Source: Clostridia bacterium (lineage in GTDB: Bacteria > Bacillota > Clostridia > Oscillospirales > CAG-272). Taken from it: 64,000 nt of DNA. Position 1 is the stretch's first letter; each line of letters begins with the position of its first letter. Positions 29,138 to 34,970 of this stretch are shown one piece after another. Under the pieces are notes generated by a model, which saw nothing but the letters and a program-made list of their open reading frames with translations, was not told the DNA's origin and did no database searches. The stretch is taken from positions 1-64,000 of the forward strand of contig JAFVRO010000014.1 of assembly GCA_017504205.1 (NCBI GenBank). The letters run 5' to 3'. Position numbers and translations under genes: made by a program.

Positions 29138-29656
29138 TTATTTTAGCATATCGGACACGTCTTTATATAGCTTTGTGTAGTCATCAGTTGCAAATGAGCT
29201 GCTCAAGACATAAGAATACATACGGTCTCCATCAACCATTATTACACTGTCTTCGGTGAGTATAAGCTGAAAGATCGAAGTTTCGTCGGAATATGCCCGA
29301 AGTCTGATTCCCCACGCACCAAGTGATGAGGCAACTACAGTGTCAGCCTTGAGATTTTTCACAGTGCCGTTCAGTCTTGATATAAGCGCTGACACCTTTG
29401 CTTTATCGGTAACAAGCGTTTCCCTGCCCCCGTTACCGCTCTGTTCTGACATAGAGTTAAGATCGGTGATAAGAATACGTGTTACGGTATCATTTGACGC
29501 GGTATACTCAGCGATATCGTCGAGAAGGCTATTTGCCCTTATAGTTGGTATAGCAAGAATTATACCGAGCACCGCTATCGCAGATATTACTAAGAGCGCG
29601 GCAATGAGTATTTTTTTTAATAATGAACTATTATGATGAATTTTAATTTTTTTCAC
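29138..29656 (-). CDS. Membrane-anchored protein of unknown function
   Basis: 172 residues: a basic N-terminus, one membrane helix (about 15-37) and a 135-residue external domain, mixed alpha/beta, with the segments DTVTRILITDLNSMSEQSGN and DTVVASSLGAWGIRLRAYSD. There is no lipobox or catalytic motif. The start is GTG (29656), behind GGAG with nine bases of spacing. It follows the spore germination gene by 19 bases, so it may be a spore or forespore envelope protein; this rests only on position. Confidence 0.65.
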   Translation of the reverse strand: MKKIKIHHNSSLLKKILIAALLVISAIAVLGIILAIPTIRANSLLDDIAEYTASNDTVTRILITDLNSMSEQSGNGGRETLVTDKAKVSALISRLNGTVKNLKADTVVASSLGAWGIRLRAYSDETSIFQLILTEDSVIMVDGDRMYSYVLSSSFATDDYTKLYKDVSDMLK

Positions 29657-29675
29657 TGTCGCGATCTCCTTTCGA

Positions 29676-31091
29676 TCAATCGTGCTTTTTTACTCTGAAA
29701 AACAGAGCAGCCATTGCTTTGGCATTAAACGGGATAAGCGGATAGAGATATTTTCGGTTACCGTTGACGGTTTTATTGGTTGCGATGAGGATGAAAACCA
29801 AGGCAAGTCCTATTGCAAATCCCCAAATATTAAACAATGCCACGAAAATCAGCAATAATATGCGCAAAAATTTAAAGGCGTATCCCAATTCATAGCTTGA
29901 CTGGGAAAAGTTGGCGATAGTAACGAATGCCATATATAGTATTACCTCGGGGATAAGCCATCCTATTGCGATTGCAAAATCTCCGAGTATCAGACCTCCG
30001 ACCACTGACAGGGAGTTTGTGAGCATATTCGGAGTATTCATCGACGCCATTCGCATACCGTCAATAATGAATTCAGTTATCAAAAGTTGTGCTAAGATCG
30101 GAATTCGTCCACGCTCGGACGGAATTATAAAAGACAGCCAATCGGGAACGAGCTCAACGTTATTGATAAGAAGATACCAAAGGGGTATCATAAACAGAGT
30201 AAGCCAGCTTACTGCGTGTCGGACAAGGCGAAGATAGGTTCCGGTCAGAGGTGGGAAGTAATAATCGTTGGTTTCCTGCAAAAAATCAAAGATTGAAGTT
30301 GGGAGTATCATTGCCTCGGGGGTGTTATCGCAAAGTAGGATAAGTCTTCCTTCTTCAAGATGTGCGGCGGCGTTATCGGGACGCTCGGTGCATCTGATTT
30401 TAGGAAATGGGTTATACCAATTTGTTTTAAGCAGGCATTCCGCTATCGACTGATGCCCCATTGTAAGGCTACCTGTTTTTATTGAACTGAGTTTTTCTTT
30501 TATTTTGCTGACGTAACCGGGGTCGGCACGGTCAGCCATATAGCAAAGCACCACGTCTGTTTTGGAGCTTGAGCCGATAGACATATAATGCATAGTCAGC
30601 GAGGTATCTCTTATTCTTCTGCGAATAAGGGCGGTATTGAAGATCAAGGTTTCTACGAATCCGTCGCGTGCACCGCGTATCACTCTGTCGCTCTCGGGCT
30701 CCTGTGTGCTTCTGGCGGGATAAGTGCGGGAGTCAATCAGTATTGCTTTGTCTTCAAAATGTTTGCCGAGAACAAGTGTTGCGCCGGACATCACCATATG
30801 GAGCATCTGATCCACCGAATCGGTTGCCTCCGCCTCGACATACGGGATATTTTCATTTACAAAGACGGCGGCGGTAGAAGCTCCCTGCGCCTTTAGCTCT
30901 TTTATTGAAAGCAAGTATATCATCAGCTTCTGCATCGCTCCGTCTTTGACGAAGCCGTCGATATAGTAAAGCGTCAGCTCGCTATCGGCGATGACGAGAG
31001 TCTTCTTGATTATATCAAAATTTTCATTTACACGAAGCAAAGAATCAATATTACGGATATTGTCCGTATAAGAAACGGTCAGCTTTTGCAT
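29676..31091 (-). CDS. Spore germination protein, GerA/SpoVAF family
   Basis: A 471-residue member of the GerA family (PF03323), membrane proteins of the spore inner membrane that sense germinants or help release dipicolinic acid. A soluble N-terminal half of about 265 residues ends in ILLCDNTPEAMILPTSIFDF, and the membrane half starts around PPLTGTYLRLVRHAVSWLTL. It includes the family's GRIPILAQLLITEFIIDGMR and NTPNMLTNSLSVVGGLILGD. No GerB or GerC partner is adjacent, which fits SpoVAF-like solitary members better than a complete Ger receptor. Its presence implies an endospore-forming ancestry. Confidence 0.88.
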   Translation of the reverse strand: MQKLTVSYTDNIRNIDSLLRVNENFDIIKKTLVIADSELTLYYIDGFVKDGAMQKLMIYLLSIKELKAQGASTAAVFVNENIPYVEAEATDSVDQMLHMVMSGATLVLGKHFEDKAILIDSRTYPARSTQEPESDRVIRGARDGFVETLIFNTALIRRRIRDTSLTMHYMSIGSSSKTDVVLCYMADRADPGYVSKIKEKLSSIKTGSLTMGHQSIAECLLKTNWYNPFPKIRCTERPDNAAAHLEEGRLILLCDNTPEAMILPTSIFDFLQETNDYYFPPLTGTYLRLVRHAVSWLTLFMIPLWYLLINNVELVPDWLSFIIPSERGRIPILAQLLITEFIIDGMRMASMNTPNMLTNSLSVVGGLILGDFAIAIGWLIPEVILYMAFVTIANFSQSSYELGYAFKFLRILLLIFVALFNIWGFAIGLALVFILIATNKTVNGNRKYLYPLIPFNAKAMAALFFRVKKHD

Positions 31092-31172: not shown

Positions 31173-32342
31173 TTATTCCTTGGACTCGGAAATCTCGAAG
31201 GTGGATCTTTCGCAGAGCTGATCCATAAGCTTTCCGTATCTGAATGCGCCCATGAGATAGTCCTTGCCGTAGTAGTTGACTATAGCCTCTGTTGTTGTGT
31301 TATTGAGTTCGGCAATTTCTTTTAGCTCAGTCTCATATTCCGACTCAGATAACGTAACGCCGAGAATCTTATACAGAGCATTCAGGACGACATCGTATTT
31401 TGCGGATTCCGTAGCCTCTTTGACGAGCTGATCCTCGGTGACGCCGGCGGAAATAAGTATAGATTCATATGACATACCGTACATATCGGCCATAGACTGA
31501 TAATATGCTTTCGCCTTTGCGAGATAGTGATCAACCTGCTGAGTCGGTTCTTTAACAAATACTGCGGCTTCGTATATTGCATCCCAAAGAGCTTCGCGTT
31601 CCTCCTGAGCAACTACGGCCTTTTTCTCCTCAATGAGGAGATTTTTATAATATGTCTCGAAATCGGCTACGTTAGTATATTCTTTTGAGGTAAGCTGTGA
31701 CACCATTTCATCGGTAAGTGCTTCGGGAAGCTTCTTCTCGACTATATGGTTTACGGTAATCTTGAACACTGCTTCCTTACCTGCCATATCTGGGTTATTG
31801 GGATAGGACTCTGGGAAGGTGACTGTAGTTTCCACCTGTGTACCCGGCATAATGCCGTAAAGGTCAGCATCAAATCCGGGGATATAACCCGTCTGTTCGC
31901 TAAGAGTAATGCTCTGCCCCTTTGCAGTACCGCCTTCAAACTTAACGCCGTCAATGTAGCCTTCAAAGTCGATATTAAGGATATCTCCCTTTTGGGTAAC
32001 ACGGTCGGTCACCTTTACTGTTTCGGCAAAATTTGAAAGTAATTTCTTTATGTTTTCCTGATATTCGGCGTCGGTGAGCTCCTTTGATCGGGTTTTAATC
32101 ACAAATCCTTCGAATTTTGTGAGGGTAACAAATTCTGCAAGGTCAAGGTTTTCAAAGTCCATCTGAGGGGGGAGCGTTTCTGCATCGGTCTCGGGAGTGG
32201 TATCCGATACGCTTTCGGAGGATGATTCACCTGATGTGTCTTCTCCGTTACCAAATATTTTGGACAGTTGGCAGGAGCAGACTGATAGTAGCATAATAAT
32301 GCAGAGTGTCAATGCGACTGACACGAAAATAAATCTTTTCAT
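31173..32342 (-). CDS. Lipoprotein with trigger-factor-like PPIase and chaperone domains
   Basis: 389 residues. The N-terminus is a lipoprotein-type signal ending near Cys22/Cys24 (LLSVCSCQ), followed by a Ser/Glu/Thr spacer (about 33-60). Residues about 62-112 correspond to the linker before the PPIase domain of trigger factor; 115-200 form an FKBP-like domain (GDILNIDFEGYIDGVKFEGG, GYIPGFDADLYGIMPG); the rest resembles the helical trigger factor C-domain. The ribosome-binding domain of cytosolic trigger factor is missing and is replaced by the lipid anchor. It therefore probably folds secreted proteins outside the membrane, as PrsA does; that is inference. An AAGGTG site precedes the ATG. 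Confidence 0.85.
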   Translation of the reverse strand: MKRFIFVSVALTLCIIMLLSVCSCQLSKIFGNGEDTSGESSSESVSDTTPETDAETLPPQMDFENLDLAEFVTLTKFEGFVIKTRSKELTDAEYQENIKKLLSNFAETVKVTDRVTQKGDILNIDFEGYIDGVKFEGGTAKGQSITLSEQTGYIPGFDADLYGIMPGTQVETTVTFPESYPNNPDMAGKEAVFKITVNHIVEKKLPEALTDEMVSQLTSKEYTNVADFETYYKNLLIEEKKAVVAQEEREALWDAIYEAAVFVKEPTQQVDHYLAKAKAYYQSMADMYGMSYESILISAGVTEDQLVKEATESAKYDVVLNALYKILGVTLSESEYETELKEIAELNNTTTEAIVNYYGKDYLMGAFRYGKLMDQLCERSTFEISESKE

Positions 32343-32374
32343 ATTAGCACCTTAGTATTTATATAAATTTAATT

Positions 32375-32417
32375 GGTAAGAAAAAGACTCACCCTATGTC
32401 AAACAGAATGAGTCTTT
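32375..32417 (-). terminator. Terminator after rpmF
   Basis: A nine-base perfect stem (32383-32391 with 32409-32417) and a 17-base loop, followed on the minus strand by a T-rich run. Confidence 0.75.
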
Positions 32418-32445: not shown

Positions 32446-32643
32446 TTACGCCTCTTTCTTCTCAACTTCGCATACCTTTTTGCCATCGTAATAGCCGCAA
32501 GCCTTGCAGACACGATGAGCGAGTACGTATTCGTTGCACTCAGGGTTTGAGCATTTAGTCATACCGGGGAATACGAGCTTCCATGTGCTGGAGCGTCTTT
32601 TATCTCTGCGTGCTTTAGATGTTTTTCTCTTTGGTACTGCCAT
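32446..32643 (-). CDS. rpmF: 50S ribosomal protein L32
   Basis: A 65-residue ribosomal protein with the standard [19 protein letters not shown] start and an intact zinc ribbon (Cys31, Cys36, Cys46, Cys49), i.e. the C+ (zinc-binding) paralogue type. AAGGAGGTG precedes the ATG. It follows the YceD gene by 100 bases, the usual arrangement in bacteria, and ends at its own terminator. Confidence 0.97.
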
Positions 32644-32743: not shown

Positions 32744-33262
32744 TCACTCATCAAGCTGGTCGATAATGCTTTGAAGCACGGCAAGTCTTGGGTCGACTTC
32801 TTTCTTGTCTGAGCAACCGCAATCTCCGTCAGCCTTTTTCTTTCCACATATAGGGCAAAGTCCCGGACAATCCTCACTGCACAGAAATCTCATTGGAAAA
32901 TCAAGTATGAGTGCTTCCCTTACCTGTTCGTCGATGTCAATACATCCGTTGGTAACGATAGCATACTCATCCATATTCTCTTCAAGCTCTTCGTCGCTTA
33001 CGGTTCCTTCCGCGGCAACGGTAAGAGTCATTTCCGTTTTGAAAACGTCACGCACCTCGTCCATACATCTGGCGCACTGTGTGATGAACGGCACCTCTGC
33101 ATTCAAATGCAATTGAATATAACCACCGTTATCGGTAACCTTACCGACAACATGAGCGTCTTTACTGAACTCGACATCTCCCATAGCTTCTGCCGCGAGA
33201 TCAAATTCAAATTCGATAACGTCGGTTTCTCCGCGCAAAAGACTGCCAATGTCCAATTTCAT
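32744..33262 (-). CDS. YceD family (DUF177) protein
   Basis: A 172-residue protein of the YceD/DUF177 family, almost always next to rpmF and linked to 23S rRNA accumulation and ribosome assembly in plants and bacteria. The start is MKLDIGSLLRGETDVIEFEF. Cysteines occur as CARC (about 63-66) and a C-terminal cluster CSEDCPGLCPICGKKKADGD, probably metal-binding. The ATG at 33262 is chosen over an upstream in-frame ATG because the upstream one lies in the promoter -35; GGAGG is 12 bases before the chosen start. Confidence 0.92.
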   Translation of the reverse strand: MKLDIGSLLRGETDVIEFEFDLAAEAMGDVEFSKDAHVVGKVTDNGGYIQLHLNAEVPFITQCARCMDEVRDVFKTEMTLTVAAEGTVSDEELEENMDEYAIVTNGCIDIDEQVREALILDFPMRFLCSEDCPGLCPICGKKKADGDCGCSDKKEVDPRLAVLQSIIDQLDE

Positions 33263-33311
33263 CCGCTTTATTATCCTCCAAATTACAAATATGCAAAATG
33301 CAACGATTATC

Positions 33312-33340
33312 ATTATAATATATTTATGTCTTTTTGTCAA
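33312..33340 (-). promoter_or_regulatory. Consensus sigma-A promoter of yceD-rpmF
   Basis: On the minus strand, TTGACA (33335-33340), 17 bases, TATAAT (33312-33317), both perfect. The predicted start site is about 40 bases before the yceD ATG. Confidence 0.85.
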
Positions 33341-34409: not shown

Positions 34410-34970
34410 TTGAAGTTTAAGAATATCAAAACACTTGTGCCCATATTGACAAGACCGGAACCTTGCGGTATGAACAAGTACTATCCTAAAACCGAACGTG
34501 TAAAGGCACACCCCGGACAGTTGTTCAAATATGCCAATGTAGAAATAGAGATGCTATATTCGCTTGAGTTCAACGCACCCAATGTGCTTGAATTTTATAA
34601 CAATTCAAGCCTCGTTAACAAGGTCTTCGTGCATGGTCAAAGCATTATGATGACCGGTGATATGGGACCTGAAGCTAATCCCATTTGTCGAAAATATTAT
34701 GGCAACTATTTGAAGAGCGATTTTTACCAAGTTGCTCATCACGGCGGTCAAGGTGGAAGCAATGAGTTCAATAAACTCTGCAACCCAAAGTATGTTTTGT
34801 GGCCTGTAGGTGAACGCAGTTACCAATCTTTAAAAGACCATTCATATAACTCTTGGCTTTCAACATCAGGAACCGTAGATATTTTCTTCCCTGCGTGGTA
34901 TCATACTACAGTAATAAATCTCCCGTTTGACGGAAAGGAATCTTCATACGAGGTTTATCCTAATAAATAA
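34410..34970 (+). pseudogene. Remnant of a ComEC-like metallo-beta-lactamase-fold hydrolase (C-terminal part)
   Basis: An open frame of 186 codons whose product matches only the C-terminal half of MBL-fold hydrolases of the ComEC-like kind: SIMMTGDMGPEAN, then SDFYQVAHHGGQGGSNEFNK and NPKYVLWPVGERSY. The N-terminal HxHxDH metal site and first half of the fold are missing, and the frame opens with a TTG lacking any ribosome site. It is best read as a 5'-deleted gene, although the remaining frame is intact, so deletion may be recent or a shortened product may still be used. It ends at a strong terminator. Confidence 0.7.

Follow-up and report, generated by a model that had tools for sequence, protein, structure and literature searches.

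We suggest that a gene of the window (the whole stretch of DNA that was analysed, 64,000 nucleotides) likely encodes a membrane-anchored and ribosome-independent extracytoplasmic foldase, which would be built from the PPIase and arm domains of trigger factor (TF) and would stand beside a PrsA-like protein in the same cell. Trigger factor is the textbook case of a chaperone bound to the ribosome. What the sequence shows here is the order of its domains in the protein, the missing ribosome-binding domain, an export signal, a conserved PPIase pocket, membership of a separate clade and the presence of lgt and lspA in the genome. Judged by their sequences, the exported TF-like proteins are a distinct and fairly common clade in this clostridial-type order, apart from canonical Tig, and its members probably fold proteins outside the cell membrane.

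Results

Domain architecture and PPIase pocket

The reading frame is intact and can be read directly from its ATG at 32342 to its stop at 31173 on the minus strand (Table 1). Pfam searches of the 389-residue protein found FKBP_C (36.7 bits against a cut-off of 21.1) and, following it, Trigger_C (34.9 bits against 22.7), with no match to Trigger_N even at an E-value of 10 and none to the parvulin domain Rotamase; the ribosome-binding motif GFRxGxxP/GxRxG is also absent from the protein. The NCBIfam trigger factor model TIGR00115 aligns to residues 72-375, which correspond to model positions 105-408 of 410, and its score of 171.7 bits lies slightly under the equivalog cut-off of 180.2 because the ribosome-binding first quarter is missing. 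From the two Pfam domains and this partial match we therefore conclude that the protein has the domain order of trigger factor minus the first domain. Solved trigger factors are also its top structural profile matches (E 1.2e-52). An AlphaFold model made from two sequences was poor (mean pLDDT 49.6, pTM 0.28), and Foldseek with this model ranked the E. coli and Vibrio trigger factors first at TM-scores near 0.2, a ranking that may at most back the FKBP part and not the geometry of the arms.

Using the eleven E. coli trigger factor pocket residues taken from PMC6166725 and PMC9527764, we found 10/11 to be identical (F168, F177, E178, I195, P196, F198, F217, P218, Y221 and F233, equivalent in the same order to Phe126, Phe135, Glu136, Ile154, Pro155, Phe157, Phe176, Pro177, Tyr180 and Phe193 of the window protein), the sole change being His222 to Pro181. 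In E. coli numbering F217, P218, Y221 and F233 are invariant in 24 homologues, and the PPIase pocket is conserved better than any other part in the exported clade, some members of which have, behind the catalytic Tyr, a short insertion of NNPD type that is not found in canonical proteins.

Table 1. Position and basis of each feature of the TF-like gene and its neighbours, numbered by the window
Feature	Position	Strand	Basis
Predicted exported trigger-factor-like PPIase/chaperone lipoprotein, 389 aa	31173..32342	-	ORF and domain matches; homologues in 43/96 relatives
Shine-Dalgarno-like AAGGTG, five bases 5' of the ATG	32348..32353	-	Read directly from the sequence
Predicted signal peptide, residues 1-23 (MKR and hydrophobic core)	32274..32342	-	Hydropathy maximum; lipobox rule
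Cys24, predicted lipidated residue, lipobox V-C-S-C	32271..32273	-	Invariant in 24/24 aligned homologues
Flexible acidic Ser/Thr-rich spacer, residues 25-65 (41 residues)	32148..32270	-	Composition; variable length among homologues
Strand and helix of the linker found ahead of the PPIase domain in trigger factor, residues 66-115	31998..32147	-	TIGR00115 start; alignment with the TFs of E. coli and Vibrio
FKBP-type PPIase domain, residues 116-197	31752..31997	-	FKBP_C; 10/11 E. coli TF pocket residues
Trigger-factor C-terminal chaperone domain, residues 225-368	31239..31670	-	Trigger_C; TF-structure profile match runs through the domain
Terminator-like inverted repeat between rpmF and the gene, AAAGACTCA...TGAGTCTTT, T-rich tail	32383..32417	-	By eye
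rpmF, ribosomal protein L32, 65 aa, upstream neighbour	32446..32643	-	Translation
yceD-like gene, upstream neighbour	32744..33340	-	Pfam YceD; phmmer neighbour search
GerA-family germination protein, downstream neighbour	29676..31091	-	Pfam GerA 1.1e-136

Export signal and spacer

The N-terminus, MKRFIFVSVALTLCIIMLLSVCSC, has a basic n-region, a hydrophobic core and a lipobox ending at Cys24, and its 13-residue hydropathy maximum of 2.9 compares with a median of 0.76 and a maximum of 1.9 in canonical trigger factors. It satisfies a PROSITE-PS51257-like lipobox rule that shuffled N-termini pass at 0.0035 and that 0/49 canonical trigger factors pass. Cys24 is kept in every one of the aligned homologues, which share 23-35% identity with the window protein. 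The spacer behind it consists to 80% of S/T/E/D/G/P/N/Q/K/R and differs strongly in length between homologues. The genome also encodes Lgt (2.3e-71, at C5) and LspA (2.0e-41), and a second, weaker Lgt-family match lies at G000:C16:18942-19655. Omp85 was not found in the genome's own assembly, which would be consistent with a single-membrane cell, the assembly being just 52% complete.

The first-pass annotation had read this gene as holding the PPIase and chaperone domains of trigger factor, with a lipoprotein signal and flexible spacer in place of the ribosome-binding domain, and the profile matches, the lack of Trigger_N and GxRxG, the lipobox at Cys24 and the same architecture in homologues all uphold that reading. 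What could not be visible from one sequence is that a whole clade of such proteins exists, and that TF homologues with a deficient N-terminus are already known from the literature.

Distribution and phylogeny

We recovered 63 homologues without the N-domain, of which 62 come from 43 of the 96 related genomes; at least 43/96 thus have one or more such homologue (33/58 in the same family and 10/38 in the same order). In a phylum-wide sample a full-length relative of this form was found in 1/80 genomes (G155), which also has a lipobox (VALLLTVVLLGSMLTACAKN), and a scan of GTDB contigs with the single window protein found one relative only (L117). The window protein, the 62 proteins from relatives and L117 form a set of 64, and all 64 have an export signal: 51 a strict lipobox, 9 a near-lipobox, 3 a membrane anchor and 1 a plain signal peptide, the last 13 being classed by eye. 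No cytosolic-looking member was found among the 64, which were collected through Trigger_C matches and resemblance to the window protein, a route that very divergent cytosolic forms could escape; an export signal was found in 0/49 canonical trigger factors. Trigger_C matches in Rotamase-bearing ORFs (e.g. L078 and G012:C51) were counted as SurA/PrsA-like and left out.

Copy number ranges from 0 to 4 per relative, with tandem copies in L051, L068 and L099, and the C-domain is strongly diverged. Three tandem TF-like genes lie at L051:3754-7468, the middle one having, in place of a lipobox, a zinc ribbon at its N-terminus and a membrane segment ahead of FKBP and Trigger_C, and exported TF-like genes stand in tandem pairs at L099:4875-7220 and L068:558-3055, where the second L068 copy bears a plain signal peptide, its Trigger_C match being decayed. 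The FKBP part is duplicated in the exported TF-like lipoprotein at L061:4836-6203 (two FKBP_C matches), and the one at L085:4956-6698 has extra FKBP-like repeats (three phmmer segments), each with a single Trigger_C.

Quick-mode trees on the shared PPIase and C-terminal region set the exported proteins apart from cytosolic Tig, placing them on one side of a branch against the canonical proteins of the order (SH-aLRT 99) and, once phylum-wide canonical proteins are added, in a clade with an SH-aLRT of 100; the inner branches of these trees are long and many are poorly supported. In the latter, phylum-wide tree, from which the longest branches were omitted, canonical proteins of the order group together with a support of 99, and the exported clade therefore does not stem from recent duplication of tig in each genome.

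Canonical trigger factor and PrsA

A parvulin PrsA-like protein is present in the genome (G000:C16, a Rotamase protein of 601 aa with an N-terminal membrane segment) that has no sequence similarity to the window protein. A canonical tig was not found, there being no Trigger_N in the recovered 52% of the genome. The ClpX zinc-finger domain is likewise not found in this assembly, and so the tig gap is best explained by the half of the genome that the assembly lacks. Trigger_N is present in 90/97 genomes and in 40/43 of the relatives with exported TFs. Five relatives that are 84-97% complete (G018, G030, G051, G068 and G096) have no Trigger_N match, and here canonical tig may be lost or may lie in assembly gaps; in G018, G030 and G051 the TF homologues are of the exported type only. 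By a hand tally, exported TFs occur in 5/17 genomes without a Rotamase match and in 38/79 with one, which is no anticorrelation among the relatives, and we therefore rejected the idea that they replace PrsA.

Genomic neighbourhood

A terminator-like repeat at 32383..32417, recognised by eye (a hairpin scan gave a smaller overlapping hairpin only), separates rpmF from the TF-like gene, so that the gene is probably transcribed from a promoter of its own. In a phmmer neighbour search yceD also precedes the homologues of L074 and L058. GerA had no match beside any homologous locus examined, and since this neighbour is not conserved we rejected a functional link to it; nor did we find a conserved gene neighbour that points to a client. 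Downstream in the window the GerA-family gene is followed by a gene for a 172-aa membrane-type protein without a Pfam match (29138-31091), and neither a GerB nor a GerC partner was seen directly adjoining the GerA gene there. A further ORF of 186 aa (34410-34970) starts at TTG and has no match in Pfam; by eye it resembles a metallo-hydrolase in its C-terminal part (HHGG motif) and is perhaps a remnant.

Discussion

We infer the localisation, activity and clients of the exported protein, along with its PrsA-like role, from the features described above, and they would fit together as follows. Sec would export the precursor, Lgt would diacylate it at Cys24 and LspA would cut it, leaving the acidic spacer to keep the TF core away from the outer face of the membrane. 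The arms of the C-terminal domain could then bind unfolded stretches of newly translocated proteins, while the FKBP domain would speed prolyl isomerisation in these proteins, with no need for ATP or a ribosome, and the protein would work beside the parvulin PrsA-like protein and not instead of it. The holdase part of this proposal is uncertain, because N-deficient TF copies of M. xanthus, which bind no ribosome and yet refold GAPDH in vitro, did not prevent GAPDH aggregation (PMC11559001).

A more specialised job outside the membrane, with the protein dedicated as chaperone or scaffold to a single client or envelope complex (spore or germination proteins, for instance) and the PPIase activity secondary, is unlikely but deserves the most weight among the other explanations. 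GerA directly downstream, the variable number of copies, some in tandem, with their strongly diverged C-domain, and the M. xanthus homologues with partitioned functions, two of them affecting sporulation (PMC11559001), all speak for such a role; however, GerA adjoins no other locus of this kind that we examined, and it is the PPIase pocket that the clade conserves best. It is very improbable that the protein is a cytosolic ribosome-free duplicate in which N-domain loss relieves a dosage constraint on Tig and the hydrophobic N-terminus is no export signal. Although this follows the published reading of N-deficient TF copies (PMC11559001), it is at odds with a lipoprotein-type signal whose Cys is invariant in 24/24 homologues and with export signals in 64/64 proteins against 0/49 canonical TFs. 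Finally, a tig gene truncated by decay or by artefact, or an ORF that combines FKBP and a helical domain by chance, might be read from the sub-cut-off TIGR00115 score and the tig missing from a half-complete genome, but with an intact frame, a ribosome-binding site, a conserved active site and a separate clade represented in 43 relatives, of which 40 have Trigger_N as well, we give it next to no credence.

As a foldase of the cell exterior the protein would resemble several known systems without matching any of them. It shares with Tig an FKBP-type PPIase that has the C-terminal arm domain behind it, the closest solved structures and the pocket, but has an export signal and spacer where Tig has its ribosome-binding domain and falls in a separate clade; its predicted signal peptide and lipobox argue against a cytosolic ribosome-associated Tig. 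FkpA and the MIP-type proteins are likewise exported FKBP-type PPIases with a helical part, and FkpA is a weak structural match to our AlphaFold model in Foldseek, but their helical dimerisation domain is N-terminal to the FKBP domain and unrelated to Trigger_C. With the Gram-positive lipoprotein foldase PrsA it would have in common a lipid anchor (predicted here), an extracytoplasmic PPIase, a helical chaperone part and the proposed job, but PrsA has a parvulin PPIase and the window protein an FKBP-type one with domains from trigger factor. SurA is also an exported PPIase chaperone, with a helical domain resembling the TF C-terminal domain (PMC9527764), and its structure 2pv3 is a weak profile match to our protein; SurA, however, has parvulin domains and is soluble in the periplasm, in contrast to an FKBP domain with a predicted lipid anchor.

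Closest of all are the N-terminally deficient TFs of Wan and colleagues (PMC11559001), among them MXAN_1178, MXAN_1713, MXAN_6153 and copies from Clostridia, which also lack the ribosome-binding motif, are shorter than Tig and occur beside one complete Tig, as in most relatives here. They found several copies in 390 of 15,241 genomes with TF, the Clostridia making up 209/238 of the multi-copy Firmicutes genomes, and usually only one copy retained the ribosome-binding motif, which they explained by duplicates being freed from a dosage constraint. Their copies are treated as sharing the functions of TF, whereas in our set 64/64 have an export signal; the main text of that paper uses neither "lipoprotein" nor "signal peptide", and we found no description of exported trigger factors in the literature searched, which takes in only a minority of subscription journals. 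This kind of N-terminal truncation is thus already known, and the exported location of the clade, if confirmed, is the new element.

We lean towards the broader view that most N-deficient TF copies of this order, until now taken for cytosolic duplicates released from a dosage constraint, belong to one old clade outside the membrane. Trigger factor would then be the origin of a second family of foldases, an extracytoplasmic one alongside PrsA and SurA. If this is true, the exchange of a ribosome anchor for a lipid anchor would make the clade a natural experiment on what the catalytic and holding domains do alone, and would add a further kind of exported folding helper to PrsA/SurA and FkpA. The way in which extra tig copies in Clostridia are read and annotated would then change as well.
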